NCBI RefSeq assembly: GCF_025290835.2
Contig: NZ_JAOCQD020000001.1
Location: 496,001 to 560,000 of the forward strand
Source: Aquabacterium sp. OR-4
Lineage (GTDB): Bacteria > Pseudomonadota > Gammaproteobacteria > Burkholderiales > Burkholderiaceae_C
DNA length: 64,000 nt
Direction: 5' to 3'
Both the position numbers and the translations under genes were made by a program. Positions 9,976-26,388 of this stretch are shown here, in pieces. Position 1 is the first letter of the stretch, and each line of letters starts with the position of its first letter. The notes under the pieces were generated by a model. It did no database searches and had not been told where the DNA came from. It saw nothing but the letters and a program-made list of their open reading frames with translations.

Positions 9976-9992
9976 GGCACTGTTTGTCAGCC

Positions 9993-10078
9993 AGCGGGAC
10001 GAGCGCCGGGCCGCTCCCAAGCCGGCCCGCCATCCCCATGGGGGATCGGCCCATGTCCCCGTGGGACGAGGGGCAGAC
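9993..10078 (+). repeat. Dispersed start-codon element, copy A (before the SPOR gene)
   Basis: About 86 bp shared with copies at lptB and before nudJ. It contains CGGGCCG...CGGCCCG (hairpin 1), ATCCCC-AT-GGGGAT (hairpin 2), CCCA...TGGG (hairpin 3), then GAGGGG at 10068-10073, five nt before the ATG at 10079. The element fills nearly all the gap between argS and the next gene and has the same orientation as that gene. Confidence 0.75.
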
Positions 10079-10816
10079 ATGATGAAACCCGTGCCGCGCG
10101 GCGGCTTTGCGGTGGGTCTGGTGGCGGGCCTGCTGATCGGCCTGGCGGTGGCGCTGGCGGTGGCGCTGTACGTCACCAAGGCACCGATCCCCTTCGTCAA
10201 CAAGCTGCCGCAGCGCACCGCCGAGCAGGACGCCGCCGAGGCCGAGCGCAACAAGCACTGGGACCCCAACGCGCCGCTGGGCGGCAAGAACGCGGCACCG
10301 CGCGCCGCGGCGCCGGCCTCGGGGGCGCAGGCCGCGTTGCCCGGGTCGGCCACCGCGCCGGCTGTCGCCACGGCCGCTACGCCGGCGACCACCCCGGCGC
10401 CCGCCGCCGGGCCGGCCGCGCCGCCCCAAGCCGCCGCCACACCGGCTGCCACCTCGGCGGCCACCTCGGCCGCCACCACGCCCGCGCCAGCGCGCAGCCC
10501 GGCTTCGGCAGCCGCCGCGGCGCGCGACCCCGCGGCCATCCTGGCCGGCCAGGGCGGCGGCGCAGCGCCTGCGGCCAAGCCGGCGATGTTCTTCGTGCAG
10601 GCCGGCGCCTACGGCAGCCCCGACGACGCCGAGGCCCAGCGCGCGCGGCTGGCGATGTCGGGCTTCACGGCCAAGGTGATGGCGCGCGAGCAGACCGGCA
10701 AGACCGTCTACCGCGTGCGCCTGGGCCCGTTTGACGAGCGCGATGCCGCCGACGACCTGCGCGAAAAGCTCGGCGCGGCAGGCGTCGAGTCCACGCTGGT
10801 GCGCGTGGAGCGTTGA
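10079..10816 (+). CDS. SPOR-domain membrane protein (FtsN-like)
   Basis: A 245-residue protein with a short cytoplasmic N-terminus (MMKPVPRGG), one membrane helix at about 11-32, a long Ala/Pro-rich periplasmic linker (about 60-165) and a C-terminal SPOR domain (about 172-245: MFFVQAGAYGSPDDAEAQ, VYRVRLGPFDERDAAD). SPOR domains bind denuded peptidoglycan glycans at the division site, so a role in cell division or envelope remodelling is likely. FtsN itself is the closest architecture, but identity is not certain. The ATG pair at 10079 was chosen because a GAGGGG box supplied by the repeat element lies 5 nt upstream. Confidence 0.88.
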   Translation: MMKPVPRGGFAVGLVAGLLIGLAVALAVALYVTKAPIPFVNKLPQRTAEQDAAEAERNKHWDPNAPLGGKNAAPRAAAPASGAQAALPGSATAPAVATAATPATTPAPAAGPAAPPQAAATPAATSAATSAATTPAPARSPASAAAAARDPAAILAGQGGGAAPAAKPAMFFVQAGAYGSPDDAEAQRARLAMSGFTAKVMAREQTGKTVYRVRLGPFDERDAADDLREKLGAAGVESTLVRVER

Positions 10817-10891
10817 ACCTGTGGCGGCAGGCCGAGTCCATGGCCCGGTTGCCACCTGAAACTGCATGCCCTGCCGGGCAAAGGAAGTCGA

Positions 10892-11530
10892 ATGAATCGT
10901 CGTGACATCGTGATCGGCCTGCCGGCCGCCGGCCTGCTGAGCGGCCTGTCGCTGCCCAGCCTGGCCCAGGGCGGGCCGGTCGAAGGCCAGGATTACAAGA
11001 AGCTCGACAAGCCGCTGGCCGTGGCGGCGGGCAAGATCGAGGTGGTCGAGTTCTTCGGCTACTGGTGCCCGCACTGCAATGCCTTCGAGCCCACGCTCGA
11101 CGCCTGGCAGCGCAGGTTGCCGGCCGATCAGGTGGCGTTCCGCCGCGTCGCCATCTCGTTCCGCCCCAACCAGGAAACGCTGCAGCGCCTGTACTACGCG
11201 CTCGAGGCCCTGGGCCAGGTCGAAGCGCTGCACCGCAAGGTCTTCCACGCCTATCACGTGGAGCACAAGCCGCTGAACACCGACGCCGAGGTGGCCGCCT
11301 GGGCCCAGGCCAACGGTGCCGACGGCGCCAAGATCGTCGACGCGATGAAGAGCTTTGGCGTGGCCACCAAGGTGCGCCTGGCTCGCCAGCTGGCCGAGGG
11401 TTACGCCATCGACGGCGTGCCCACGCTGGGCGTGCAGGGGCGTTGGCGCACCGCGCCGTCGATCGCCGGCACCGAGGCCCGCGCGCTGGCCGTCACCGAC
11501 GCGCTGATCGCGATGGCCCGCCGCGGCTGA
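10892..11530 (+). CDS. dsbA: Thiol:disulfide interchange protein DsbA
   Basis: A 212-residue periplasmic disulfide oxidase. It has a cleavable signal (MNRRDIVIGLPAAGLLSGLS, ending SLAQG), a thioredoxin-fold CPHC active site in FFGYWCPHCNAF (Cys59 and Cys62) and the cis-proline loop GVPTLGVQG. CPHC is the classic strongly oxidising DsbA motif. The signal has two arginines and may be Tat- or SRP-targeted. AAGGAAG lies 6 nt before the ATG. It is third in the argS - SPOR - dsbA run. An imperfect hairpin follows it. Confidence 0.95.
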   Translation: MNRRDIVIGLPAAGLLSGLSLPSLAQGGPVEGQDYKKLDKPLAVAAGKIEVVEFFGYWCPHCNAFEPTLDAWQRRLPADQVAFRRVAISFRPNQETLQRLYYALEALGQVEALHRKVFHAYHVEHKPLNTDAEVAAWAQANGADGAKIVDAMKSFGVATKVRLARQLAEGYAIDGVPTLGVQGRWRTAPSIAGTEARALAVTDALIAMARRG

Positions 11531-11543
11531 TCCTGGTAAAAAC

Positions 11544-11581
11544 CCTTGGTTTCTGACGCCGCACTGACGGTGTCACCAAGG
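11544..11581 (+). terminator. Two-part hairpin after dsbA
   Basis: CCTTGGT (11544-11550) pairs with ACCAAGG (11575-11581), and GACGCCG (11555-11561) pairs with CGGTGTC (11568-11574) with one G-T wobble. The stems are separated by a 4 nt bulge and the apical loop is 6 nt. It probably ends the argS-SPOR-dsbA transcript, though no T-run follows. Confidence 0.45.
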
Positions 11582-11639
11582 CCCAGCGGATGCCACAGAT
11601 TTGGCATCGGCCACTTCCGCAGCGGTCGGCTCTTGGGCC

Positions 11640-11645
11640 TAGAAT
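11640..11645 (+). promoter_or_regulatory. -10-like hexamer TAGAAT for lptA
   Basis: TAGAAT lies 24 nt before the lptA ATG, which would give a leader of about 18 nt. It marks the likely promoter of the lptA-lptB-rpoN-methyltransferase run. Confidence 0.4.
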
Positions 11646-11669
11646 GATCTGCAAGTTCTGTGCCGATCA

Positions 11670-12329
11670 ATGCCCAAGCCGACCTCCCCCCCATCGATCA
11701 CCGCCTGCCTGAGGCGGGGCGCCAGCCTGGCCCTGGGGCTGGCCGCGATGCTGCCGGTGCAGGCCGAGCGCAGCGACCGCACCAAGCCGATGGCGCTGGA
11801 ATCCGACCAGCCCTGCGTGGTGAACCTGGCCAAGCAGACCAGCGCCTGCGCCGGCAACGTGGTCATCAGCCAGGGCTCACTGCTGCTGCGCGCCGACAAG
11901 CTCGAGGTGCGTGAGACGCCCGAAGGCTGGCAGCAGGTGCAGGCCAGCGGCAGCGCCGACAAGCCGGCCCGCGTGAAGCAAAAGCGCGACGGCGTCGACG
12001 AGACGGTCGAGGGCCAGGCCCAGCGCATCGATTACGACAGCAAGACCGGCACCATCCGCTTCGACGGCGCGGCCGTGGTGCGGCGCCTGCGCGGCGCGGT
12101 GGTGGCCGACGAGATCCAGGGCACCCGCATCGTCTGGGACGGCCAGGCCGAGACCTTCAATGTGCAGGGCGGCGGCAACACCACGCCCAGCAACCCGGGC
12201 GGCCGGGTGCGCGCCGTGATCACGCCGCGCCCCGGCACCGAAGCCGCCGCCGCCATGGCCGCCGAGTCGGCCTCGGCCCCCGCGCCAGCCCCGCTGAAAA
12301 CCACGCCGGCGCTCGGGGAGCGGCGTTGA
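11670..12329 (+). CDS. lptA: Lipopolysaccharide transport periplasmic protein LptA
   Basis: A 219-residue protein with a signal peptide (hydrophobic core [14 protein letters not shown]), then an OstA/LptA beta-jellyroll (about 38-180) with typical pieces [34 protein letters not shown] and [16 protein letters not shown]. LptA forms the periplasmic bridge that passes LPS from the LptBFGC complex to LptDE. The C-terminal 40 residues are Ala/Pro-rich and probably disordered. It overlaps lptB by one base (TGATG). lptC, usually just upstream, is absent here and dsbA lies there instead. Confidence 0.93.
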
Positions 12330-13306
12330 TGCAACAGGCCCGGCCCACCGCCATCCCCCAGGGGGATCGCCCGACGGCCGCGGTGGGCGAGGGGCTCGCG
12401 GTGAGCGGGCCGAGCGCCGGGCCGCTCCCAAGCCGGCCCGCCATCCCCGCGGGGAATCGCCCGACGGCCGCGGCGGGCGAGGGGCTCGCAGTGAGCGGGC
12501 CGAGCGCCGGGCCGCTCCCAAGCCGGCCCGCCATCCCCTTGGGGGATCGCCCGACGCTCGCGGCGGGCGAGGGGCTCCATGTCACCGGTTTGCAAAAACG
12601 CTACGGCTCGCGCCAGGTGGTCAAGGATGTGCGCCTGGCGGTGGGCGCCGGCGAGGTGGTGGGCCTGCTAGGCCCCAATGGCGCGGGCAAGACCACCACC
12701 TTCTACATGGTGGTGGGCCTGGTGCGGGCCGATGCCGGCGAGATCCACATCGATGGCGTGGCGGTGCAGGCCAAGCCCATCCATCAGCGCGCGCGCATGG
12801 GCCTGAGCTACCTGCCGCAGGAAGCCTCGATCTTCCGCAAGCTCACGGTCGAGGAGAACGTGCGTGCGGTGCTCGAGCTGCAGGTGGGGGCCGATGGTCG
12901 GCCGCTGGGCGCGGCCGAGATCCAGCAGCGGCTTGACGGCCTGCTGCACGACCTGAGCATCGAGAAGCTGCGCGAATCGCCGGCGCCGGCGCTGTCGGGC
13001 GGTGAGCGGCGGCGCGTGGAGATCGCCCGCGCGCTGGCCACGCAGCCGCGCTTCATCCTGCTCGACGAGCCCTTTGCCGGCGTCGACCCGATCGCGGTGA
13101 TCGAGATCCAGCGCATCATCGGTTTTCTCAAGCAGCGCGGCATCGGTGTGCTGATCACCGACCACAACGTGCGCGAGATGCTGGGCATCTGCGACCGCGC
13201 GTACATCATCAGCGAAGGCCGTGTGCTGGCCGAAGGCACGCCGTCCGAGATTGTCGAGAACGCCGACGTGCGCCGGGTGTATCTCGGCGAGCACTTCAAG
13301 ATGTGA
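12329..13306 (+). CDS. lptB: LPS export ABC transporter ATPase LptB with a repeat-derived N-terminal extension
   Basis: The last ~240 residues are a canonical Lpt[10 protein letters not shown] Walker A, Q-loop LPQEAS, signature [15 protein letters not shown], Walker [13 protein letters not shown] and the switch His in ITDHNVREM. It powers LPS extraction with LptFG at the inner membrane. The total is 325 residues against about 240 in the family. The extra ~83 are Pro/Gly-rich and encoded by the tandem 90 bp repeat (unit [21 protein letters not shown]...). The ATG at 12329 overlaps the lptA stop (TGATG). Other in-frame starts are GTG 12401 and 12491, both inside the repeat. The ATG at 12579, next to the repeat's GAGGGG box, is out of frame. 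The true N-terminus is therefore uncertain; the core assignment is not. Confidence 0.93.
12338..12578 (+). repeat. Dispersed start-codon element, tandem copies B (inside the lptB reading frame)
   Basis: One partial and two further copies repeat with a 90 bp period (GTGAGCGGGC at 12401 and 12491). Each has ATCCCC...GGGGAT, CGCCCG...CGGGCG and GAGGGGCTC boxes as in copy A. Because 90 is divisible by three, all copies read in the same frame and form the N-terminal extension of LptB. Confidence 0.85.
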
Positions 13307-13325
13307 GCTTGGGCGGAAAGCAGTC

Positions 13326-14870
13326 ATGAAACCGTCCCTACAGGTCCGCCTGTCGCAGCACCTGGCGCTGACGCCCCAGCTGCAGCAATCGATCCGCCTG
13401 CTGCAGTTGTCCACGCTGGAGCTGCACCAGGAAATCGAGCAGATGCTCGAGGCCAACCCCTTTCTCGAGGCCGAAGAGGGGGGCGACGATTCACTGGCCT
13501 ACGGCCTCGAGCGCGTGGCCGCCACGCCCGAGAGCGGCGCCGGTGCCGAGCGCGAGAAAGAGCGCCAGAGCGAGCGCGACGACGCCGGCACCGAAGAGCC
13601 CGCGGGCGTGGATGCCGCCGAGTTTGGCGCCACCGAGCGCGACGACTGGGAAAACGGCACCGAGCGCGACGACTTTGATGGCATCCGCGAGGCCCCGTCC
13701 AACAGCCCCTCGGGCAGTGGCGGCGACGACGATTTCGAGCCGGTGGACGCCGCCAGCAGCGGCCCCTCGCTGCAGGATCACCTGCGCCGGCAGCTGCTGG
13801 GCATGCGCCTGTCCGACGAGGACGCGGCCACCGTGATGGTGCTGATCGAAAGCCTCAACGAGGACGGCTGGCTGGCCGACCCGCTGGAGGAGATCGCCGC
13901 CCGCGTGGCCGACAGCCTGGGCGTGGCCGAAGACGACCTGGAAGAGCGCGAAGACCTGTTTGGGCGCCTGCGCTGCGGCCTGAAGTGGCTGCAAAGCCTC
14001 GAGCCCACCGGCGTGGGCGCGGCCAATCTGGGCGAGTGCCTGGTGCTGCAGCTGCGCGAGCGGCCCGCCAGCCCCGCGCGCAAGCTGGCCATGCGCGTGA
14101 GCGAACAGCACCTCGATCTGCTGGCGCGGCGCGACATGAAGAAGCTCACGCAGGCCACCGGCGCCGATGAAGCCCTGCTGCGCGAGGCGCAGGCGCTGAT
14201 CCTGAGCTGCGAGCCCAAGCCGGGCCGGCCGTTCACGCGCGCCGAGGCCAACATCATCGTGCCCGATGTCATCGTGCAGAAGGCGGGCCGCGGCTGGAAG
14301 GCCGTGCTCAACCCCGACGTGATGCCCAAGCTGAAGATCAACGATCTGTATGCGCAGGCCATTCGCGGCCAGCGCAACGGCTCGGCGGGCGGGCTGTCGT
14401 CGCGGCTGCAGGAGGCGCGCTGGTTCATGAAGAACATCCTGCAGCGCTTTGACACCATCCTGCGCGTCAGCCAGGCCATCGTCGAGCGGCAGAAGGGCTT
14501 CTTCACCCATGGCGAGATCGCGATGAAGCCGCTGGTGTTGCGCGAGATCGCCGACGAGCTGGGCCTGCACGAGAGCACCATCTCGCGCGTGACCACCGCC
14601 AAGTACATGAACACGCCGTTCGGCACCTTCGAGCTGAAGTACTTCTTCGGCTCGAGCCTGAACACCGAGGCGGGCGGCAACGCCAGCTCCACCGCCGTGC
14701 GCGCGCTGATCAAGCAGCTGGTCGGCAACGAAGACCCGGCCAAGCCGCTGTCGGACAGCCAGCTCTCGGACATGCTGTCCGAGCAGGGCATCCAGGTGGC
14801 GCGGCGCACGGTGGCCAAATACCGCGAGGCGCTGAAGATCGCGCCCGCCAACCTGCGCAAGGCACTTTGA
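13326..14870 (+). CDS. rpoN: RNA polymerase sigma-54 factor
   Basis: A 514-residue RpoN. Region I is the Gln/Leu-rich N-terminus (MKPSLQVRLSQHLALTPQLQQSIRLLQLS) that contacts enhancer-binding activators. Region II is a long acidic stretch (about 55-150). It is followed by the core-binding domain and the DNA-binding domain with the near-invariant RpoN box ARRTVAKYREAL close to the C-terminus. It directs transcription from -24/-12 promoters. The start at ATG 13326 follows GGAAAG and lies 19 bp after lptB. The lptB-rpoN linkage is typical of proteobacteria, although hpf and ptsN do not follow here. Confidence 0.97.
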   Translation: MKPSLQVRLSQHLALTPQLQQSIRLLQLSTLELHQEIEQMLEANPFLEAEEGGDDSLAYGLERVAATPESGAGAEREKERQSERDDAGTEEPAGVDAAEFGATERDDWENGTERDDFDGIREAPSNSPSGSGGDDDFEPVDAASSGPSLQDHLRRQLLGMRLSDEDAATVMVLIESLNEDGWLADPLEEIAARVADSLGVAEDDLEEREDLFGRLRCGLKWLQSLEPTGVGAANLGECLVLQLRERPASPARKLAMRVSEQHLDLLARRDMKKLTQATGADEALLREAQALILSCEPKPGRPFTRAEANIIVPDVIVQKAGRGWKAVLNPDVMPKLKINDLYAQAIRGQRNGSAGGLSSRLQEARWFMKNILQRFDTILRVSQAIVERQKGFFTHGEIAMKPLVLREIADELGLHESTISRVTTAKYMNTPFGTFELKYFFGSSLNTEAGGNASSTAVRALIKQLVGNEDPAKPLSDSQLSDMLSEQGIQVARRTVAKYREALKIAPANLRKAL

Positions 14871-16330
14871 CCAAGACCCCACGCCCGCCGATCGGCGGCT
14901 ACAAGACGCAGCGCCACGACGAGGCGCGCGGCCCCGGCGCACGCCCCGGCCCCGGCGCACAGCGCGGGCCGGGCGCCCCGGTGCGCATTCCGGCCAAGGC
15001 CATTGCGCCGGTGGGCGACACGCCGGTGTCGCTGTTTCTGCCCTGCGCCGCGGGCGTCGAGCCGCTGCTGGCCGACGAGGTGGCGGCCCTGCTGGGCGTC
15101 GACCGGGCCGTGGTGCCGGCCGATCCGAGCCGGCGCCGCGTGGTCGAGCAGCGTGGTGGCGTGCAGGTGCTGGGCGATGCCCGCGTGGCCATGCAGCTCA
15201 ACCTGCACAGCCGCCTGGCGCAGCGCGTGCTGTGGCCGCTGGCCTTCGGCCCCTACGACAGCGAGCACGACCTGTACGACCTGGCGCGCCGCGTGCCCTG
15301 GGCCGACTGGATCACGCCCGAGCAGACCCTGCGCATCGACACCAGCGCGCAGCGCAGCCCGCTGCACAGCCTGAATTTCGCCACGCTGCGGGTCAAGGAC
15401 GCGGTCTGCGACACCCTGCGCGAGGCCACCGGCAGCCGCCCCAGCGTCGACACCCGCCACCCCGATCTGCCGCTGGTGCTGCACCTCACGGCCGAGACCG
15501 CGTCGCTGTATGCCGACACCTCGGGCGAGGCGCTGTTCAAGCGCGGCTGGCGCGACGAGCGCGACGGTGGCCTGAAGGGCGAGGCGCCGCTGAAGGAAAC
15601 CCTGGCCGCGGCCATGCTGGCGGCCGCCGGCTGGCGCGGCCGCGCCGAAGACGGTGCGCTGCTCGACCCCTGCTGCGGTGCCGGCACCATCGCCATCGAG
15701 GCCGCGCAGATCGCCTGCGGCATCGCGCCGGGCAGCAAGCGCCGCTTCGCCTTTGAGCGCATGCTGCCGTTCCGCAGCCAGCTCGCGGCCTGGGGCCAGC
15801 TGAAGGCCGATGCCCAGGCCCAGGTGCATGCGCCGGCGGTGGCCATCCATGCCGGCGACGTGAGCTTTCGCATGACCGACTTTGCCGCGCGCAATGCCCA
15901 GCGCGCCGGCGTGGCCGAGGCCATCCAGTTCAAGACCGCCGATGCCCTGCAGCGCCCGCCGCCGGGCGAGCGCGGCGTGCTGGTGTTCAACCCGCCCTAT
16001 GGCGAGCGCATCGAGGCCAAGGGCTCGCGCGGTGAGCGCGGCGCCGAGCGCGCCATGCGCGAGGGCTTCGATGCCGCACCGGATGCCGCACCCGGCGCGG
16101 CGCCGGGTGCCGACCCGGCAGGCGCCGCGTTTTTCAGCGGCCTGGCCGCGCACTGGAAGCGCGCCTACGCCGGCTGGACCGCCTGGGTGCTCAGCCCCGA
16201 CATGAAGCTGCCCCAGGCCCTGCGCCTGAAGGAAGCCCGCCGCGTGCCGATGTGGAACGGCCCGATCGAGTGCCGGCTGTTCCGCTTCGACCTGGTGGCC
16301 GGCTCGGCACGCGAGCCGCGCGCCGAGTGA
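14867..16330 (+). CDS. THUMP-domain 23S rRNA guanine-N2 methyltransferase (RlmL N-domain/YcbY type)
   Basis: A 487-residue SAM-dependent methyltransferase. A basic, Gly/Pro-rich leader (about 1-50) is followed by a THUMP RNA-binding domain (FLPCAAGVEPLLADEV..., GVQVLGDARVAMQLNLHSRLAQRVL) and a Rossmann methyltransferase with SAM motif DPCCGAGTIAIEAA and catalytic NPPYGER. This matches the m2G2445-type enzymes of the Trm-G10/RlmL group, without the RlmK half. The start is a TTG overlapping the rpoN stop (TTGA), implying translational coupling. GTG codons near residue 50 are alternatives. A low-complexity Ala/Pro insertion lies at about 395-420. Confidence 0.85.
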   Translation: MTKTPRPPIGGYKTQRHDEARGPGARPGPGAQRGPGAPVRIPAKAIAPVGDTPVSLFLPCAAGVEPLLADEVAALLGVDRAVVPADPSRRRVVEQRGGVQVLGDARVAMQLNLHSRLAQRVLWPLAFGPYDSEHDLYDLARRVPWADWITPEQTLRIDTSAQRSPLHSLNFATLRVKDAVCDTLREATGSRPSVDTRHPDLPLVLHLTAETASLYADTSGEALFKRGWRDERDGGLKGEAPLKETLAAAMLAAAGWRGRAEDGALLDPCCGAGTIAIEAAQIACGIAPGSKRRFAFERMLPFRSQLAAWGQLKADAQAQVHAPAVAIHAGDVSFRMTDFAARNAQRAGVAEAIQFKTADALQRPPPGERGVLVFNPPYGERIEAKGSRGERGAERAMREGFDAAPDAAPGAAPGADPAGAAFFSGLAAHWKRAYAGWTAWVLSPDMKLPQALRLKEARRVPMWNGPIECRLFRFDLVAGSAREPRAE

Positions 16331-16361
16331 GCGTGCTCAGCGGTTCAGCAGGCCGCTGAGC
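16328..16361. terminator. Hairpin at the convergent methyltransferase/YidB gene ends
   Basis: GCTCAGCGG (16335-16343) pairs perfectly with CCGCTGAGC (16353-16361), and a smaller palindrome TGAGC-GT-GCTCA (16328-16339) holds both stop codons. It can serve as a bidirectional terminator, with the larger stem lying inside the end of the YidB-like gene. Confidence 0.5.
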
Positions 16362-16774
16362 CCACCGAGCAGGCTGCCCAGGTCGGGTTGGGCCATGGCG
16401 CCGGCGGCCGGCAGGGCGCCGTTGGGGGTGAGCTTGTCCACCACCTGCGGCAGCAGCTGCGACAGCTGGCCGGCCAGATCACCGGTGTTCAGGCCGGTCT
16501 GCTGGGCCAGCTGGCCGATCAGGTCGCTGCCGAGCGCGCCCTGCAGCGCCTCGGCCGATACCGGCAGGTTGGCGCCGGTGCCGATCCACGACTGCACCGC
16601 ATCGCCCAGGCCGCCCTGCTGCAGCTGCTGCACCAGGCCGCCCAGGCCGCCCACCGGGCTGTTGTTGCCGAGCAGGCCCACCACCAGCTGCAGCAGGTCG
16701 GGCGCGCCGCCTTGTCCGCCCTGGCCCTGCAGTGCGCCCAGCGCGCCGCCAATCACCGAATCGAGCAAACCCAT
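16337..16774 (-). CDS. YidB-like (DUF937) protein
   Basis: A 145-residue Gly/Leu/Gln-rich protein beginning MGLLDSVIGGALGAL, with QSWIGTGANLPVSAEALQGALG in the middle and a second LxQLLPQVVDKLTPNG segment. These are hallmarks of the YidB/DUF937 family, whose function is unknown. No signal peptide or long membrane helix is seen. The start ATG at 16774 has AAAGGGAG about 9 nt upstream and gives the conserved MGLLDSV start, so an ATG three codons earlier was not used. It stands alone, convergent with the methyltransferase gene. Confidence 0.85.
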   Translation of the reverse strand: MGLLDSVIGGALGALQGQGGQGGAPDLLQLVVGLLGNNSPVGGLGGLVQQLQQGGLGDAVQSWIGTGANLPVSAEALQGALGSDLIGQLAQQTGLNTGDLAGQLSQLLPQVVDKLTPNGALPAAGAMAQPDLGSLLGGLSGLLNR

Positions 16775-16888
16775 GTCGTGCACTCCCTTTGCCTTGCGGC
16801 GCTGCCGGTCTTGCGCACCCGACCACCGGGCGCGATGCCGGCCGATTGTGGCCGCCGCGGGGGATGCCGCCCTGCGGCATCGGTCACG

Positions 16889-18106
16889 TCAGTGCGCTGG
16901 CGTGGTGGCCAGGCGCTGCGCGCGCGGCAGCCACAGCAGGGCCAGTCCCATCAGGGCCAGCGGCAGCAGCGCGCCCAGGTTCATGGCGCGCCAGCCCCCG
17001 GTGGTGACGATCACGCCCGAGGCAAACGAGGTCAGCGTCATCGTGGTGTAGACGCAGAAGTCGAGCGCGGCCTGGGCACGGGTCTTTTCCTCGGGCCGCC
17101 AGGTCTCGGTGGCCAGTGTGGTGCCGCCGATGTAGAGGAAGTTCCAGCCCAGGCCCAGGGCCATCAGTGCACCCAGAAAGTGCATCACCTCGTTGCCGGC
17201 CAGCGCAAACACCACGCAGGCCAGGTTGAGCAGCAGGCCCGCGGCCATGATGGCGCCGACGCCAAAGCGCTGGATCAGCCGCCCGGTGACGAAGCTGGGC
17301 GCAAACATGGCCAGCACATGCCACTCGAGCACCAGCGCCGCGGCAGTGAACGGGTGCTGGCACTGCGCCATCGCGATGGGTGTGGCGGCCATCAGCAGGT
17401 TCATCACGCCATAACCGATGGCGCACGCGGCCACGGCGATGATGAACAGCGGCTGGCGCACGATCTCACCCAGCGGCCGGCCCTGCGCTGCCGTGCTGCC
17501 CTGGCCGGGCAAAGGCGGAAAGGGGATGAAGCCCATCACCACCAGGCTCAGCGCCGCCACGGCGGCCAGCGCCAGGTAGGCGCCGGCAAAGGGCGCGCCG
17601 GCCAGCAGGTCGCGGCTGGCGGTGGCCAGGTTGGGGCCCACCACCGCGCCCACGATGCCGGCCGCCAGCACCCAGGAGATGGCGCGCTCCTTGGCCGCGG
17701 GCGGCACCAGCTCCACCGCGGCAAAGCGGTAGAGCGCGCCGTTGGCGTTGTAGAAGCCGGCCAGCAGCGTGGCCGCGCACAGCAGCCAGAAGCTGCCACG
17801 CGCCGCGGCCCAGGCGCACAGCGCGGCACTGACGATGGCCACCAGCAGGCCCAGCTGGAAGCTGCGCTGCCGCCCCCAGCGCCGCTGCACGCGGGCCACG
17901 ATGCCGGTGGCCAGCGCGCCGCCGGCCACATAGCCGGTGATCGGCAGCGTGGCCATCCAGCCCTGCGGTGCCAGGGCCAGGCCCACCAGGCCGTTGATGG
18001 CGATGAAGGTCACGTTGTTGACCATCAGCAGGCCCTGGCAGGTCACCAGCAAGGCCAGGGCGCGGTTCATGGCGGGGTGGGCATCGGTTGGCGACCGGGC
18101 GGCCAT
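16889..18106 (-). CDS. MFS transporter
   Basis: A 405-residue protein with about 12 hydrophobic segments and a basic motif after the second helix (RVQRRWGRQRSF), the major facilitator signature. Halves are separated by a cytoplasmic loop around 205-220 (PGQGSTAAQGRPLGE). The substrate cannot be told from sequence; the overall look is that of drug/metabolite-efflux MFS proteins. The start ATG at 18106 follows the rsmE stop with no gap (TGAATG). An internal ATG 12 codons on (MNRALALLV) would also suit the first helix. It probably forms an operon with rsmE. Confidence 0.88.
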   Translation of the reverse strand: MAARSPTDAHPAMNRALALLVTCQGLLMVNNVTFIAINGLVGLALAPQGWMATLPITGYVAGGALATGIVARVQRRWGRQRSFQLGLLVAIVSAALCAWAAARGSFWLLCAATLLAGFYNANGALYRFAAVELVPPAAKERAISWVLAAGIVGAVVGPNLATASRDLLAGAPFAGAYLALAAVAALSLVVMGFIPFPPLPGQGSTAAQGRPLGEIVRQPLFIIAVAACAIGYGVMNLLMAATPIAMAQCQHPFTAAALVLEWHVLAMFAPSFVTGRLIQRFGVGAIMAAGLLLNLACVVFALAGNEVMHFLGALMALGLGWNFLYIGGTTLATETWRPEEKTRAQAALDFCVYTTMTLTSFASGVIVTTGGWRAMNLGALLPLALMGLALLWLPRAQRLATTPAH

Positions 18107-18856
18107 TCAGGCGCCCGCGGCCAGGGCGGCGATCACCGCCAGCGCGGCCAGCGGCGCGGTGTCGGCACGCAGCACGCGCGGGCCCAGCGACACCGGCGCA
18201 AAGCCGGCGCGGGCCGCGGCCTGCTGCTCGGCCGGGCTCAGGCCGCCTTCGGGGCCGCTCAGCAGCACCCAGTGGGTGCCCGCAGGGGCCGCGTCGACCA
18301 AGCTGCGCAGCGGTGGTGCGGTGGCGTCCAGGCTCAGCTGCAGGCCGCGGGCGCCGGGCCCGGCGGCGGCCAGTGCGCCGGGCAGCCAGGCGGCCAGCGG
18401 CTGCGGCGCGGCAATGGCGGGCACGCGGTTGCGCCCGCTTTGCTCGCAGGCCGACACGGCCACCGCCTGCCAGTGCGCGGCCTTGCGCTCGGCGCGCTCG
18501 CCGGCCACGCGCAGCACCGAGCGCTCGGTCATCAGCGGCACGATGGCCGCGGCGCCCAGCTCGGTGGCCTTCTCGATCAGCGTGTCCATGCGCTCGTTGG
18601 CCGGCATGCCGGGCGCCAGCGTCACCGGCTGCGGCAGCTCGAGATCGCGGGCCTCGTGGGCAATGGCGCGGGCCGTCACCTCGCGGCGGCCCATGGCCAG
18701 CACCTCGGCCTGCCACTGGCCGCCCTGGCCATCGAACAGGGTCAGCGCATCGCCGGGCTGCAGGCGCAGCACCTGCACGTGGCGGGTGGCATTGGGGGGC
18801 AGCGCCAGTTCGGCGCCAGGGGCGAGCGGGGTGTCGACGTGCAGACGGGGCGGCAT
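18107..18856 (-). CDS. rsmE: 16S rRNA (uracil-1498-N3) methyltransferase RsmE
   Basis: A 249-residue SPOUT-class methyltransferase. An N-terminal PUA-like domain (MPPRLHVDTPLAPGAELALPP, HVQVLRLQPGDALTLFDG) is followed by the SPOUT domain with ATELGAAAIVPLMTERSV, SACEQSGRNRVP, a VLLSGPEGGLSPAE SAM-binding knot and a final LGPRVLRADTAPLAALA motif. All family landmarks are present. It methylates U1498 of 16S rRNA in the 30S subunit. The next gene begins immediately after its stop. Confidence 0.96.
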   Translation of the reverse strand: MPPRLHVDTPLAPGAELALPPNATRHVQVLRLQPGDALTLFDGQGGQWQAEVLAMGRREVTARAIAHEARDLELPQPVTLAPGMPANERMDTLIEKATELGAAAIVPLMTERSVLRVAGERAERKAAHWQAVAVSACEQSGRNRVPAIAAPQPLAAWLPGALAAAGPGARGLQLSLDATAPPLRSLVDAAPAGTHWVLLSGPEGGLSPAEQQAAARAGFAPVSLGPRVLRADTAPLAALAVIAALAAGA

Positions 18857-18878
18857 AGGGCAGGCGCTTCGGAAAATC

Positions 18879-19919
18879 TCAAACCACGAATCGACGCAGG
18901 ACGGGCGCCTTCAAGGCCCCTCTGACAAGGACCCCGGAGATCACCATCACCCAGGCCACGAAGCCAAGCTCCCAGGCGGCCGAGTCGACGGCCAGCCGGG
19001 CAGGCGTGAGCGCGCCGATGACTGGAATGTGCATCAAGTAGATGCCCATGGACATTCTGCCCAGGGCCGGCAGCGGCGTGCCGGCGCCGAAGTTCGGCCT
19101 CTGCCGCGCCACGGCCAGCACGGCCACGCTCAGTGGCAGCGTGGCCAGCAGGTAGGGCCTTTCACGGAACGCCTCGCCGTGCAGGGCCGACAGGAGCGTG
19201 GTCTCGACGAACATCAGGGCCAGCGGCAGGCCCAGTGCGGCGACGGCGCCCATGCGTCGCGGCGGTGAACGCGCCAGGGCGTGGCCGGCCAAGACAAACG
19301 CGGTGGCGATGAACGGGCCGCGATGCTCGAGAAGCTGCGCCGTCGTGGCGCTGCCGATGGGCACGGCATAGGCACCCATGGCCAAGGCGGCCAGGTAGGA
19401 CAGGGCCGCGATGGCCGCCATCCAGGCGCGGGCCAGGCCGAGGCGGACCAGCAGGGCCAGCACGCTGACCGCCCAGATCAGCGAGACGAGAAACCAGAGC
19501 GGCGTGGCGCTGGTTCTGAACAGGAACAGATCGGGGCGATGGACGGCAAACGAGGGGATGGCCAGCGCGTTCCACAACAGCGGCTTCACACTGCCGGCCT
19601 GCCAGACATGGAAGAGCCAGTTCCCCTGGAAGCAGCCGTTGACGAGGGTCCAGGCGCCCAGCAGCAGGGCCAGGCGCCTGACATAGCGTTGCCAGACCGC
19701 ACCGGGCGCGTGGCTGCCCATGCGCTCGCTCAGCAAGAAGCCGGCAGCCAGGAAGAAGAACGGCACCGCGAACGACGCACATTGCTGGATGACATGGCCC
19801 GCCAGCTGCCAGCTGGCCGAGGCCGGGCGGGAGCGGTGGAACGGTTCGGTGTGGATCGCGACAACCGCGATCAGCGCCATGCCCTTGACTGAATCGATCG
19901 ATACCACCCGGTCTCGCAC
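18879..19919 (-). CDS. Acyltransferase family 3 membrane protein
   Basis: A 346-residue protein with about ten hydrophobic segments and the N-terminal acyltransferase-3 signature VVSIDSVKGMALIAVVAIHTEPF, where the His after the first helix is the likely catalytic residue. The C-terminal LGRMSMGIYLMHIPVIGAL is also typical (S-x-GIYL-x-H). Such proteins O-acylate surface glycans or other exported acceptors, but the acceptor here is unknown. The reading frame appears slightly less GC-rich than its neighbours. It is followed by rsmE on the same strand after 22 bp, so cotranscription is possible. Confidence 0.85.
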   Translation of the reverse strand: MRDRVVSIDSVKGMALIAVVAIHTEPFHRSRPASASWQLAGHVIQQCASFAVPFFFLAAGFLLSERMGSHAPGAVWQRYVRRLALLLGAWTLVNGCFQGNWLFHVWQAGSVKPLLWNALAIPSFAVHRPDLFLFRTSATPLWFLVSLIWAVSVLALLVRLGLARAWMAAIAALSYLAALAMGAYAVPIGSATTAQLLEHRGPFIATAFVLAGHALARSPPRRMGAVAALGLPLALMFVETTLLSALHGEAFRERPYLLATLPLSVAVLAVARQRPNFGAGTPLPALGRMSMGIYLMHIPVIGALTPARLAVDSAAWELGFVAWVMVISGVLVRGALKAPVLRRFVV

Positions 19920-20045
19920 ATGCCCCCCCGAAGCGCAGCCTGAACCGCGCAGGGGCAGGGTATCGGAGTCAGTGGCAGGCAGGCGTCACGGCTGGTGTCC
20001 GCCGGCTGCATGCCCGGGGCACTGCTGCCGCAGCGCCGCGGCAGC

Positions 20046-20105
20046 GACCGGCCGTTCAGCGATCGGCCGTTCAGCGGACGGCCGCTCAGCGATCGGCCGC
20101 TTCGG
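20046..20105. repeat. 15 bp tandem repeat x4 at a gene 3' end
   Basis: Four units of GATCGGCCGTTCAGC-type sequence run without spacers. On the minus strand three units each end in an in-frame TGA, so the stop codon of the unknown gene (20086) is backed by two further stops in register. Confidence 0.8.
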
Positions 20106-20694
20106 GTGCGGCCAGGCCCTCGGCCAGCGCCTGCGCGGCGGCATCGCCCGCGGCCTCGCGCACCTGCTCGACGAAGCGCAGCGCCAGCGTGCGGGCTTCG
20201 TCAGGGCCGGCGCAGCGCTCCATCTCGAGGATCAGCTTGTAACCCTTGATCAGGCCCAGCTGCGGCCGGGCCTGCGCGGTGATGCGCTCGTACAGCGTGC
20301 GGTAGCTCAGGCTGGCCAGCGCCTGGGACAGCGGGATGCGTGGCGCAGCAGCCGCCGCAGCGGGCGCGGTGCCCGTCACCACGGCGGCAAGCGCGGCCGG
20401 CAGGGCCGGCGTGGCGGGCCGGGGCGCGGTGGCATCGGCCACGCCCACCAGGCCGGCGGCCAGCAGCGTGCGCAGCGCCTCGGGGCCGCAGCCCTGCACC
20501 ATGGCCATCCAGGCCGCGGCCGGCCGGCCCGGCTCGATGATCAGCAGCAGATTGCGCGCGCCGCGCGACAGCGTCAGCGTGCGGCCACGCACCTCGGCGT
20601 GGCCGGCATCGGTCTTGGCATAACGCGCACCGGTGTCCGGTGCGGGCTCGTCCTGCGGTACCGCGGCTGGCGAATCGGCGGCGGCGGCGCTCAC
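20086..20694 (-). CDS. Uncharacterised protein translationally coupled to fadD
   Basis: A 202-residue protein I do not recognise as a named family. The first ~40 residues are Ala/Pro-rich. Residues 40-95 (VRGRTLTLSRGARNLLLIIEPGRP...LRTLLAAGLVG) resemble small winged-helix-like modules seen in betaproteobacterial regulators. An Ala-rich linker follows, then an alpha-helical C-terminus (SYRTLYERITAQARPQLG, YKLILEMERCAGPDEARTLALRFVEQV). No signal or membrane segment is present. The start is a GTG overlapping the fadD TGA (GTGA), which fixes it and implies coupled translation. The 3' end lies inside a 15 bp tandem repeat. Confidence 0.7.
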   Translation of the reverse strand: MSAAAADSPAAVPQDEPAPDTGARYAKTDAGHAEVRGRTLTLSRGARNLLLIIEPGRPAAAWMAMVQGCGPEALRTLLAAGLVGVADATAPRPATPALPAALAAVVTGTAPAAAAAAPRIPLSQALASLSYRTLYERITAQARPQLGLIKGYKLILEMERCAGPDEARTLALRFVEQVREAAGDAAAQALAEGLAAPEAADR

Positions 20695-22367
20695 TTGGAG
20701 GGTTGCCGCAATTCGCGCCGCAGGATCTTGCCCACATTGGTCTTGGGCAGATCGGCGCGGAACTCGATCACGCGCGGGCGCTTGTAGCCGGTGAGGTTGC
20801 TCTCGCAGTAGCTGCGCACATCGGCCTCGGTGAGCGCCGGGTCCTTCTTGACGATGACCACCTTGACCACCTCGCCCGACTTCTCGTCGGGCAGGCCCAC
20901 CGCCGCGCATTCGAGCACGCCGGGGCACTGGCTGAGCACGTCCTCGACCTCGTTCGGGTAGACGTTGAAGCCGCCCACCAGAATCATGTCCTTCTTGCGG
21001 TCGATGATGCGGAAGTAGCCACGCTCGTCGACCAGGCCCACGTCACCGGTGCGGAAAAAGCCGTCGGCGGTCATCACCTTGGCGGTCTCGTCGGGGCGCT
21101 GCCAGTAGCCGGCCATGACCTGCGGGCCACGGATGGCGATCTCGCCGGCCTGGCCGGGGCCGACCTCGCGGCCGTCGTCGTCCAGCAGCGTGAGCTCGGT
21201 GCCCGGCATCGGCAGGCCGATGGTGCCCGAGTACGAGGTGGCATCCACCGGGTTGCAGGTGGCCGAGGGGCTGGTCTCGCTGAGGCCGTAGCCTTCGCAG
21301 ATCGGGCAGCCGGTCTTGTCGAGCCACAGCTTGGCGGTGCCGGCCGTGACGGCCATGCCGCCACCCACGCTGATCTTCAGGTGGCTCCAGTCGACCTTGT
21401 CGAAGTCAGGGTGGTTGGCCAGCGCATTGAACAGCGTGTTGACCGCCGGAAAGCTGTGGAAACGCTGGCCGGTCAGGTCTTTCAGCAGCGAGCCGAAGTC
21501 GCGTGCATTGGGAATCAGGATGTTGCAGCCGCCCATGCGCAGGCCCAGCATCATGTTGGCCGTGAAGCCGAAGATGTGGTACAGCGGCAGCGCGCAGACG
21601 GTGACGATCTGCTCGCCGCTCGGGATCTTCTTGAGCGCCGGCTGGTACCAGGCCTCGGCCTGCAGCACGTTGGCCAGCAGATTGCGGTGCAGCAGCACCG
21701 CGCCCTTGCTCACGCCGGTGGTGCCGCCGGTGTACTGCAGCACCGCGATGTCGTCGGGGCCGACCTTGGCGGCCGTGAAGGCCTTGCTGCGGCCCTCGGC
21801 CACGGCGTTCTTGAAGCGCACCGCGCCGGGCAGGTTGTAGGCCGGCACCATCTTGCGCACGTTGCGCACCACATGGTTGACCAGCATGCCCTTCACAAAG
21901 CCCAGCATGTCGCCCATGGCGGCCAGCACCACGGTCTTGGTGGGCACCTGCTCGATCACCTGCTGCAGCGTGGCGGCAAAGTTCTCGAGGATGATGATCG
22001 CCTTGGCGCCCGAATCCTTGAGCTGGTGCTCGAGCTCGCGCGGCGTGTACAGCGGGTTGACGTTGACCACCACCAGGCCGGCGCGCAGGATGGCCGCCAC
22101 CGCCACCGGGTACTGCGGCACGTTGGGCATCATCACCGCCACGCGGTCGCCGCGCTCCAGGCCGCTGGCCTGCAGCCAGGCGGCCATGGCGCGCGAGGCC
22201 TCGTCAATCTCGCCGAAGCGGATCGACCGGCCCATGAACAGGTAGCCGGTCTGGTCGCGGTACTTGCTGAAGCTGTCCTCGATCAGCGCCACCAGGGACG
22301 GATAGGCGTCGGTGGAGATGGTCGCCGGAACGCCAGCGGGATAGTGTTTGAGCCAGGTCTTTTCCAT
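20691..22367 (-). CDS. fadD: Long-chain fatty-acid-CoA ligase
   Basis: A 558-residue adenylate-forming enzyme that activates fatty acids to acyl-CoA through an acyl-AMP intermediate. It shows the phosphate loop YTGGTTGVSKGA, the adenine motif YGLSETSP, the TGDVG motif with FFRTGDVGLVDERGYFRIIDRKKDMI and the C-terminal lysine region ERADLPKTNVGKILRREL-like sequence. The length matches FadD. The N-terminus MEKTWLKHYPAGVP is family-typical, which fixes the start. It lies alone downstream of pntB with a 203 bp gap and heads a coupled unit with an unknown gene. Confidence 0.95.
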   Translation of the reverse strand: MEKTWLKHYPAGVPATISTDAYPSLVALIEDSFSKYRDQTGYLFMGRSIRFGEIDEASRAMAAWLQASGLERGDRVAVMMPNVPQYPVAVAAILRAGLVVVNVNPLYTPRELEHQLKDSGAKAIIILENFAATLQQVIEQVPTKTVVLAAMGDMLGFVKGMLVNHVVRNVRKMVPAYNLPGAVRFKNAVAEGRSKAFTAAKVGPDDIAVLQYTGGTTGVSKGAVLLHRNLLANVLQAEAWYQPALKKIPSGEQIVTVCALPLYHIFGFTANMMLGLRMGGCNILIPNARDFGSLLKDLTGQRFHSFPAVNTLFNALANHPDFDKVDWSHLKISVGGGMAVTAGTAKLWLDKTGCPICEGYGLSETSPSATCNPVDATSYSGTIGLPMPGTELTLLDDDGREVGPGQAGEIAIRGPQVMAGYWQRPDETAKVMTADGFFRTGDVGLVDERGYFRIIDRKKDMILVGGFNVYPNEVEDVLSQCPGVLECAAVGLPDEKSGEVVKVVIVKKDPALTEADVRSYCESNLTGYKRPRVIEFRADLPKTNVGKILRRELRQPSK

Positions 22368-22570
22368 GCTGCGGATTCTTGCGGATTCCTGACGCTTGGC
22401 GTCTCAGGGTAGTCGATAGCGCGTCTAGGGCGATCTGTCTATCACCCACCCCGCCAGACACCGAGATTGCACTGTCGCCGAAATCACGCCGGCCGGCTTG
22501 CGCGGGCCCGGCCGGGCGGCGGCCGCAGGCTGTGGCGCACAACCCGGCGGCCGGCGCCGCGGGAGCCCGC
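22368..22570. other. Intergenic region between fadD and pntB
   Basis: About 200 bp. It must hold the fadD promoter and the end of the pnt transcript. On the minus strand CCTAGACGC and TATCGACT lie 60-75 nt before the fadD start and may include a -10. The pntB-proximal half is rich in GGCCGG/CCGGCC self-complementary runs that could fold, but no single convincing terminator stands out. Confidence 0.35.
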
Positions 22571-23989
<1,419 letters not shown>

Positions 23990-24023
23990 GCTGTCCGTCC
24001 TTGCTTGTTGTTCTTGTGCTTCG

Positions 24024-25610
24024 TCACTTGCGGAACATCGCCAGCATGCGCCGCGTGACCGCGAAGCCGCCGAACATGTTGACGGCGGTGAGCGCCAACG
24101 CAAACACCGCCAGGCCCAGGATCAGCGCATTGGGCCGATCGGTCACCCCGCCGCTGAGCGGCGGCGCCACCTGCACCAGCGCACCGATGGCGATGATCGA
24201 GCTGATGGCGTTGGTCACGCTCATCAGCGGCGTGTGCAGGCTGGGCGTGACGTTCCACACCACCATGTAGCCGATGAAGCAGGCCAGCACGAACACCGTG
24301 AAGTGGCTCAGGAAGCTGGCCGGCGCGTACAGGCCCACCAGCGCGAACAGCACCGCGCCGATGCCGAACACCGTGGCCAGGCTCTTGCCCGACATCGGCT
24401 CGCCCGGGCCATGGCCATGGCCCTTCTTGGCCTCGGGCACGGCGGCAGCCGGCTTCTTGGCCGGCGGCGCGGGCAGCTTGAGCGGCGGCGCGGGCCAGCT
24501 CAGCTCGCCGGCCTTGACCACGGTGAGGCCGCGGATCGCGTCGTCGTCGAAGTTGACGTTGAGCTGGCCGTCTTTGGCCTTGCACAGCTCCTCGGTCAGG
24601 CGCAGCAGGTTGTTGGAGTACAGCGTGCTGCTCTGCTTGGCCAGGCGGCTGGCCAGGTCGGTGTAGCCGACGATGGTGACGCCGTGGCGCACCACTGCCT
24701 CGCCGGGCACGGTGAGCTCGCAGTTGCCGCCCTGCTCGGCAGCCATGTCGACGATCACGCTGCCGGGCTTCATCGACTCGACCATCGCCGCGGTGATCAG
24801 CTTGGGCGCCGGCTTGCCCGGGATCAGCGCGGTGGTGATGATGATGTCGCACTCCCTGGCCTGCTGCGCGTACATCGCGCGCTGGGCGGCCTGGAAGCCT
24901 TCGCTCATCACCTTGGCATAACCGCCGCCGCCCGAGCCTTCTTCTTCGTAGTCGACCTTGACGAACTCGCCGCCCAGCGAGACCACCTGGTCGGCCACCT
25001 CGGCGCGGGTGTCGTTGGCGCGCACGATGGCGCCGAGATTGGCCGCGGTGCCGATGGCCGCCAGGCCGGCCACACCGGCGCCGGCGATGAACACCTTGGC
25101 CGGCGGGATCTTGCCCGCGGCCGTGACCTGACCGTTGAAGAAGCGGCCGAAGGCATTGGCCGCCTCGACCACCGCGCGGTAGCCGCTGACGCCGGCCATC
25201 GAGGTGAGGGCGTCCATCTTCTGCGCACGGCTCAGCTGGCGCGGCAGGCAGTCGATGGCCAGCACGGTGAGCTTGCGCGCCTGCAGCTGCTGCATCAGCT
25301 CGGGGTTCTGCGCCGGCCACACAAAACCGATCAGCGTGCTGCCCTCGCGCAGCTGGGCCACTTCGTCCGGCGTGGGCACACGCACCTTGAACACCACGTC
25401 GGCCTGCGCCAGCAGCGTGGCGGCGTCGGGCAGCACCTCGGCGCCGGCGGCGCGGTAGGTGTCGTCGGCAAAATTGGCGGCTTCACCCGCGCCGCTTTGC
25501 ACCGCCACCCGGAAACCCAGCTTGATGAGCTTTTCCACCACCTCGGGCACGGTGGCCACGCGTTTTTCGCCTGCCGCCGTCTCCTTCGGCACGCCAATCA
25601 ACAAAGCCAT
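24024..25610 (-). CDS. pntA: NAD(P) transhydrogenase subunit alpha (fused form)
   Basis: A 528-residue subunit with the soluble NAD(H)-binding domain I ([54 protein letters not shown]) joined through an Ala/Pro/Lys linker (about 385-420) to the C-terminal membrane segment (about 430-528, four helices, ending [16 protein letters not shown]). Many related bacteria split this into pntAA and pntAB; here it is one chain as in E. coli. GAGGAGAT lies about 7 nt before the ATG. The 265 bp upstream also holds the nudJ leader on the other strand. Confidence 0.97.
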
Positions 25611-25636
25611 GTACGGATCTCCTCGGATGGTGGGTT

Positions 25637-25654
25637 GCCGGCTAGCGTGCCGGC
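25637..25654. repeat. Inverted repeat in the pntA leader
   Basis: GCCGGC-TAGCGT-GCCGGC forms a 6 bp stem with a 6 nt loop about 27 bp upstream of the pntA ATG. It might fold in the pntA leader RNA. No regulator is known for it. Confidence 0.3.
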
Positions 25655-25783
25655 TTGTTGCCGCAGCGGGTGTCTGCAAGAAGCTTACCTGACTTCACTC
25701 TTTCAGCCGTCGCTTGCGTGATAGAGCGCACGCCCCACAGACACTGCATCATGGGCCCCATGCAAACAAGGCTGTCGATCATC

Positions 25784-25875
25784 GCGAGCGGGCCGGGCGC
25801 CGGGCCGCGCCCAGGCCGGCCCGCGGCCCCCCTGCCGGGCAATCGGCAGGCCTGCCCGCCAGACGAGGGGCGGGC
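25784..25875 (+). repeat. Dispersed start-codon element, copy C (before nudJ)
   Basis: A diverged copy beginning GCGAGCGGGCCGGGCGCCGGG and ending CCAGACGAGGGGCGGGC directly against the nudJ ATG. Hairpin 1 (CGGGCCG...CGGCCCG) is kept, and the central part has changed to GGCAGGCCTGCC-type self-complementary sequence. GAGGGG ends 5 nt before the ATG, exactly as in copy A. Confidence 0.65.
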
Positions 25876-26388
25876 ATGACGCGATGGAAGCCCAGCGTCA
25901 CCGTGGCCGCCATCGTGGCGCGCACCGATGCCGACGGCCCGCGCTACCTGCTGGTGGAGGAAAACACGCCCGAAGGCCTGCGCCTGAACAACCCGGCCGG
26001 CCATCTGGACCCCGGTGAATCTCCGCAGCAGGCGGCCATGCGCGAGTGCCTGGAAGAGACAGCCTGTGCCTTCGTGCCACAGGCCTTGCTGGGGGTGTAC
26101 CTGTCGCGCTTCCAGCGCCCCGGCCGGGTGGTTGATGGCCAGGCGCAGGCGGCCGACGACATCACCTTCGTGCGCTTTGCCTACTGCGGCAGCGTGGGCG
26201 CGCCCGAGCCCGGGCGCGCGCTGGATGCGCCGATCGTGCGCACGCTGTGGCTCACGCCCGACGAGGTGCGCGCCAGCGCGGCGCGTCACCGCAGCCCGCT
26301 GGTGCTGCAATGCATCGAGGATCACCTGGCCGGGCGCCGCCTGCCGCTGGACGCGGTGACGGTGCACGCCTCGGTGTGGCAGGTTTAG
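25876..26388 (+). CDS. nudJ: NUDIX hydrolase (NudJ-like phosphatase)
   Basis: A 170-residue protein with a Nudix box at 42-64 (G42, E48, R56-E57, E60-E61 of GX5EX7REUXEEX), followed by an Ala where many members have Gly. The preceding LLVEEN...LRLNNPAGHLDPGESP and the FVRFAYCG strand match NudJ, which hydrolyses nucleoside di- and triphosphates and the thiamin precursor HMP-PP. NudJ often adjoins mnmA, and mnmA is indeed 2.8 kb downstream on this strand. The start is set by the GAGGGG box from the repeat element 5 nt before the ATG. Confidence 0.85.
   Translation: MTRWKPSVTVAAIVARTDADGPRYLLVEENTPEGLRLNNPAGHLDPGESPQQAAMRECLEETACAFVPQALLGVYLSRFQRPGRVVDGQAQAADDITFVRFAYCGSVGAPEPGRALDAPIVRTLWLTPDEVRASAARHRSPLVLQCIEDHLAGRRLPLDAVTVHASVWQV

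Follow-up and report, generated by a model that had tools for sequence, protein, structure and literature searches.

The closest described counterpart of the element reported here is MIRU (mycobacterial interspersed repetitive units), whose units are 77 bp and 53 bp long according to the part of PMC4213456 that gives them and which, in the passages of PMC12548453 that treat it, is apparently mobile, inserts at start codons and has an internal open reading frame (ORF) coupled at -4 nt. We analysed a 64,000-nucleotide stretch of Aquabacterium sp. OR-4 (NZ_JAOCQD020000001.1, positions 496,001 to 560,000), referred to as the window, which carries copies of a guanine-plus-cytosine (GC)-rich element, type A. 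As far as those passages describe MIRU, type A resembles it in being a short repeat at start codons, with an internal ORF in -4 nt coupling, and in forming rows of several units within a single intergenic region. It differs in its host, Aquabacterium, which belongs to another phylum and is not a mycobacterium; in its three covarying GC-rich hairpins, its Shine-Dalgarno (SD)-like GAGGGG end and the length compensation between its arm and body; and in having an antisense sister subtype, type B, behind stop codons. The likeness to MIRU is by description only. In our reading, type A is a mobile repeat of the MIRU kind, non-autonomous and with start codons as its insertion sites; we give this reading a probability of about 0.78.

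Other families share some of these traits. BRE (Hot et al. 2011; PMC3110155) is a GC-rich repeat of ~90 bp (75-91), betaproteobacterial (Comamonadaceae included) and found in tandem; it is intergenic, some copies overlapping ORF ends or sitting within coding sequence, and the section on BRE states no function, no mini-ORF and no start-codon rule. Type A agrees with that section in length (75-91 bp), GC-richness, tandem arrangement and betaproteobacterial host. Compared in this way, by description and not by sequence, BRE could be type A or type B, the second family described below, or neither. REPs, in the portion of PMC2817692 that defines them, have a head that reads GT(A/G)G and are found flanking rayt genes, and type A is like them a dispersed palindromic repeat. 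Rickettsia palindromic elements, which PMC2229807 names, are taken up below with LptB. Searches of the open-access literature brought up no description of a start-codon or mini-ORF rule for Burkholderiales, and PMC3733652 makes no mention of the taxa looked for or of the start codon.

Type A copies and their position at start codons

A covariance model (R1), built from 20 copies of the window genome (6.63 Mb in 7 contigs) with the ATG columns omitted, gave 103 matches in that genome at E values up to 1; the scan scored 150 of 21428 first-look candidates and may have missed weak copies. By their tails, 36 matches were type A (CGAGGGGC: GAGGGGC, up to two mismatches), 61 were type B (CCGGGTGC: GGGTGC, up to one mismatch) and 6 were neither. 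Hairpin 1 is common to both types, and the best downstream coding frame was sense in 33/36 type A and antisense in 58/61 type B copies. The repeat core CGCCGGGCCGCTCCCAAG occurred 91 times in the genome (41 exact) with up to two mismatches, versus 3 times for a reversed control, and is therefore not due to chance; inside the window alone, 4 cores were seen with up to three mismatches where 0.98 were expected, which is weak evidence. A sequence-only reading of the window had proposed a dispersed element shared by three sites and a genome search with a covariance model as a check: the motifs are present at those sites, and the search extends the element far beyond three copies.

To call gene frames, we used a codon-usage score whose training set was 162 long ORFs. 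The position test comprised 39 copies of the window genome (k43, k73 and k86 admitted by hand), of which 36 were co-oriented with the gene, and 77 matches in 74 loci of relatives, of which 68 were co-oriented. A start codon lay exactly 4 nt past the model end in 29/36 and 53/68 of these, respectively, that is, in 82 of the 104 co-oriented copies. Placement and orientation are non-random; the sequence-only reading had placed copies right before start codons in the gene's own orientation. Downstream proteins carried a Pfam domain in the called frame in 28 of the 30 cases first tested. Of the two misses, the SPOR gene gave its domain when its full length was used; with three additional genes, each carrying a domain, the total is 32/33, and the called frames are real genes. 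Domains included transketolase, glutamine amidotransferase, export protein family 3, thymidylate kinase, D-ala ligase, PCRF and FGGY kinase, among others, with no common pathway.

An exception to the start-codon rule was observed in four relatives (L226, L258, L218 and L240), in which type A-like copies lie antisense, with similar flanks, at what is apparently the end of one conserved gene.

The type A core is 80-81 nt long in most copies, with a GC content of 0.75-0.84, and tandem units are spaced 88-90 bp apart. Across the order, an exact 20-mer was found in 2 of 250 genomes, the window genome counted, just 7 of the 250 (again with the window genome) being of the same family; among relatives, a 19-mer was found in 33/120 genomes and 15/100 genera.

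A mini-ORF in phase with the gene start

An upstream start codon opens a mini-ORF that runs through the element and ends on the gene start (ATGA), ends just before it, or fuses in frame with the gene. Among 109 distinct sites, with M denoting the gene start, the first ORF stopped at M+1 in 56 (the -4 nt coupling of MIRU), stopped 1-8 nt before M in 14 and was fused to the gene in 12 (a separate start being absent from 7 of these and present in 5); at 4 others the upstream gene read through to M+1, 10 were antisense and 13 belonged to none of these classes. Coupling or fusion was therefore seen at 86 of the 99 distinct co-oriented sites.

The phase was tested under a fixed rule, in which the mini-ORF starts at the first ATG at or after the stop of the upstream gene, or else at GTG. 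At xTGA sites, named after the sequence of their gene start, the ORF stopped at M+1 in 12/16 sites of the window genome, in 38/43 relative sites and in 49/57 distinct pooled sites, against an expected 1/3 (p = 2.9e-16); the test omits 13 copies of the window genome and 5 relative copies that have no co-directional upstream stop within 75 nt. In the copies listed, which are those with an ORF end near M, arms measured 2-52 nt, the body measured 79-84 nt in all but two, and the mini-ORF was ~29-53 aa long. Arm and body lengths summed to the coupled phase in 35 of 40 relative xTGA sites, with 16 and 18 sites in the two main combinations. Since these two combinations keep the phase yet encode different peptides, it is the frame that is conserved and not the peptide. 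The GC content was 0.56 in the arms, 0.64 in the 25 nt past gene starts and 0.72 in the window. The frame-kept mini-ORF, which the sequence-only reading had overlooked, is the decisive feature of the element.

SPOR, lptB and NUDIX loci in the window

The copies in the window make up a single repeat family (D2) and all lie on the plus strand:

9994..10074, plus strand: type A copy 1, before the SPOR gene (covariance model, 91.4 bits)
12320..12395, plus strand: degenerate first tandem unit at lptB (covariance model, 40.7 bits)
12405..12485, plus strand: type A, second tandem unit at lptB (covariance model, 78.4 bits)
12495..12575, plus strand: type A, third tandem unit at lptB (covariance model, 90.6 bits)
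25788..25871, plus strand: type A copy at the NUDIX gene (covariance model, 43.9 bits)

These copies are associated with the following reading frames:

8236..9975, plus strand: argS (TIGR00456 above cut-off); its TGA stop and the mini-ORF start share an ATGA at 9972
9972..10082, plus strand: mini-ORF of 36 aa through the element; it closes with a TGA at 10080-10082, which overlaps the SPOR gene's ATG
10079..10816, plus strand: SPOR-domain, FtsN-like gene behind copy 1 (PF05036, 5.6e-19; ftsN model under its cut-off)
12329..13306, plus strand: lptB; residues 1-82 derive for the most part from the tandem elements, translated in frame, and the match to the LptB family (TIGR04406) begins at residue 83
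25760..25879, plus strand: mini-ORF through the element (start at 25760, or 25751); its TGA overlaps the NUDIX gene start
25876..26388, plus strand: NUDIX-domain gene behind the element (PF00293, 1e-14), named NudJ in the sequence-only reading

The functional upstream boundary of the element is the ATG that opens the mini-ORF (9972; 25751 or 25760). At lptB, the ATG at 12579 does not share the LptB frame; LptB begins at 12329 and runs in frame through the copies, which leaves just two window sites of the three ahead of a separate start codon. The tandem copies are here in-frame coding sequence and form no leader. The three sites first described do carry the shared motifs, but 12338-12578 is a ~90-bp tandem and not a single copy; likewise, the claim that the element abuts three start codons, with GAGGGG 4-5 nt before each ATG, holds at the SPOR and NUDIX genes, where the distance is 5 nt, but not at lptB.

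A query with the first 88 residues of LptB matched 12 proteins, of which 9 were inspected. The element peptide was N-terminal in three (P0003, P0011 and P0012) and C-terminal in five (P0001, P0005, P0007, P0008 and P0010), and accounted for a large part of P0002, which may be a spurious ORF. Rickettsia palindromic elements are in-frame inserts in protein genes, and element peptides at the N- or C-termini of unrelated proteins, together with the LptB N-terminus, would suit a protein-level insert of that kind, its peptide or linker being useful or harmless and the ATGA overlaps incidental. Type A differs from the Rickettsia elements, however, in its placement at start codons and in the separate gene start found in most copies: such a start is kept, with the stop on it or just before it, at 74 of 99 sites (56 + 14 + 4) versus 12 fusions, and different frames give different peptides, so that we regard a protein-level insert as quite unlikely.

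In the same window, a repeat of 87 bp, 92% identical between its two copies (26421-26507 and 27665-27751), encodes the PEPGS...ALMAGGLALLGALARRR ends of two adjacent minus-strand genes, which we presume to be PEP-CTERM-like.

Empty sites and probable mobility

At the hisH-like junction, several relatives read stop-CC-ATG, whereas the window genome reads stop-CC-ATG-arm-element-ATG (the names hisB and hisH are presumed; Pfam gave glutamine amidotransferase for the hisH-like gene). An R1 search of 29 relative hisH-like loci found no element copy. In 34 relative loci around dsbA, R1 found those argS/SPOR and lptA/lptB junctions that the loci contain to be empty, the sole match (L034, 48.7 bits) being antisense and directly behind dsbA. 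The comparison of empty and filled orthologous junctions places the insertion at the start codon, and the original start appears to become the mini-ORF start. Moreover, five relative copies, four of them in one genome, were identical over 80 nt at unlike sites, and three copies in another genome were identical over 81 nt with unlike flanks. Type A is a dispersed, structured unit with an SD-like GAGGGG box, and it is probably mobile.

A mobile REP-like unit that carries a ribosome-binding site had been one of the two suggestions of the sequence-only reading; mobility is probable and the box is SD-like, but the likeness to REPs is not supported, no RAYT link having been found. A REP/BIME-like palindrome that owes its spread to a RAYT (Y1) transposase and its place at start codons to a side effect would agree with the dispersed GC-rich hairpins, the tandem copies and the one PF01797 gene of the window genome. 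No element was found within about 8 kb of that gene, however, the best nearby score being 17.6 bits, and no Y1 gene flanked by the element was seen, this gene alone having been examined closely. PF01797 was also not found in seven element-bearing genomes, several of them incomplete: G251 (42 element matches) and G264, G252, G255, G257, G260 and G267 (4-16 each). Placement and orientation being non-random as well, spread by such a transposase appears very unlikely.

Carriage by plasmids or viruses was tried and rejected: neither type A nor type B had a match in the plasmid collection, and no exact 19-mer was found in viral contigs.

Secondary structure and covariation

The structure considered here consists of three hand-drawn hairpins and is biased towards itself; an RNAalifold consensus paired hairpin 1 otherwise. 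It fits 90.3% of cells in 20 copies of the window genome and 95.7% in 71 distinct relative copies, in line with the up to three hairpins per copy described from the sequence alone. In the relative copies, both sides changed in 12 of 27 pairs (67 cells), and on none of the five measures did any of 500 shuffles reach the observed value, with slid controls far below it, in an alignment that was fitted to the model and therefore favours covariation. In the 20 copies of the window genome, two covariation measures were equalled by 7 and 8 of 500 shuffles. Stem 3, in which covariation had been suspected, holds most of it, with changes on both sides in 7/9 pairs.

Such covariation, together with an SD-like box where hairpin 3 ends, is what would be expected if the hairpins formed a riboswitch- or thermometer-like RNA that regulates the gene downstream in cis; a cis-acting RNA was the other suggestion of the sequence-only reading. 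The covarying structure stands; the downstream genes, however, are unrelated, orthologous sites in relatives are empty and not conserved, and the SD box is not gated in silico (see below). An Rfam search of the window gave no match, and at a low threshold the region 9950-12620 gave 7 matches, all under the gathering score. Overall, we consider a regulatory RNA unlikely.

Long inserts (up to 123 nt) were observed around hairpin 1 in some copies (C1:1600633-1600754 and C1:1598409-1598531 in the window genome; L026 and L185 in the same observation). Two other copies had a CAGTCCGCAGGGACTG-like sequence in place of hairpin 1, and these are perhaps nested repeats.

Proposed mechanism

For a MIRU-like repeat inserting at start codons, the following course can be proposed. 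On insertion, the gene's original ribosome-binding site and ATG would become the start of the mini-ORF, which would pass through the three GC-rich hairpins; the end of the element would bring GAGGGG and a duplicated ATG(A), the gene's new start. With the mini-ORF stop on the new ATG (ATGA, -4 nt) or a few nucleotides before it, terminating ribosomes could re-initiate. Alternatively, the frame would be joined to that of the upstream gene or, as in LptB and a xanthine-dehydrogenase-like gene, to that of the gene itself. Insertion would thus be tolerated, even ahead of genes that bacteria usually cannot do without, and the element could spread without silencing host genes. The scheme starts from position, orientation, frame, structure, empty sites and identical copies at unlike sites, all visible in the DNA; from these we infer translation, re-initiation, mobility as a process and tolerance as the reason for the frame.

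Several points weigh against this reading. Relatives were picked mainly by top score, the position test covering 77 matches where 165 relative matches had been counted, and the antisense sites (10/109) and those outside every class (13/109) escape the rule. All three frames of the GC-rich element are mostly stop-free, which makes the lumped 86/99 less telling than the phase test, and a near-constant insert length could set the phase mechanically in part of the copies. Translation and re-initiation of the mini-ORF are deduced from sequence, and the PF01797 search of the window genome and the relatives named above yielded no mobilising gene. Lastly, the predicted accessibility of the SD box was hardly raised, at 0.29 with the mini-ORF region melted versus 0.26, and 0.24 with the body shuffled (lower in 26/53 copies); the SD box being no more hidden than with a shuffled body, gating by structure was rejected, folding lending it no support.

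Type B and a second repeat family

Among the 58 antisense type B copies, the stop of the opposing gene lay 0-12 nt behind the element in 35, at 85-100 nt in 16, at 170-185 nt in 5 (tandem) and elsewhere in 2. Type B may be a 3' untranslated region element. Its 61 copies in the window genome (e.g., L025, L027 and L028) were mostly observed right behind opposite-strand stop codons, often in tandem.

A second family, with no evident sequence relation to type A, was found in the same place as type A at the hisH-like gene of G258 (L294). Its core, CGTTCGCTGCCCCCCGAGGGGGC, was present in 16 of 60 genomes and absent from the window genome. In this family (L294, L319-L348), an ORF that starts from an ATG 20-25 nt ahead of the core ends between M-6 and M+1 in 17/19 loci, counting loci with a called start; of the 30 loci in all, some of them overlapping, 11 lacked a called start. 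A search of the plasmid collection with a composed query of 81 nt for this family matched 14 records (H1-H14), from Burkholderia, Paraburkholderia, Variovorax, Rhodoferax and Azoarcus. Six were inspected: two were unannotated, one had the element inside an annotated N-terminus, and three had it between annotated co-directional genes, the following start lying at the end of the element or close to it.

We give even odds to the idea that Burkholderiales harbour a guild of at least two repeats, ~80-115 bp long and not evidently related in sequence, that exploit the signals of translation. Start codons would be captured, with frame-matched mini-ORFs, by type A and the CGTTCGCTGCCCCCCGAGGGGGC family, and type B, the structural sister of type A, would lie antisense behind stops. 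If true, one hairpin-1 module would underlie two modes of insertion, one tied to where coding regions start and the other to where they end.

Significance

Small repeats are usually treated as intergenic filler, and the anatomy described here fits an element made harmless through translation. Betaproteobacterial repeats that were left without an assigned role in 2011 could be read in its light at the level of function, and it would explain odd N- or C-terminal tails of predicted proteins, such as that of LptB in the window. Dozens of natural translational-coupling cassettes of known phase would thereby become available for studying the rules of re-initiation.

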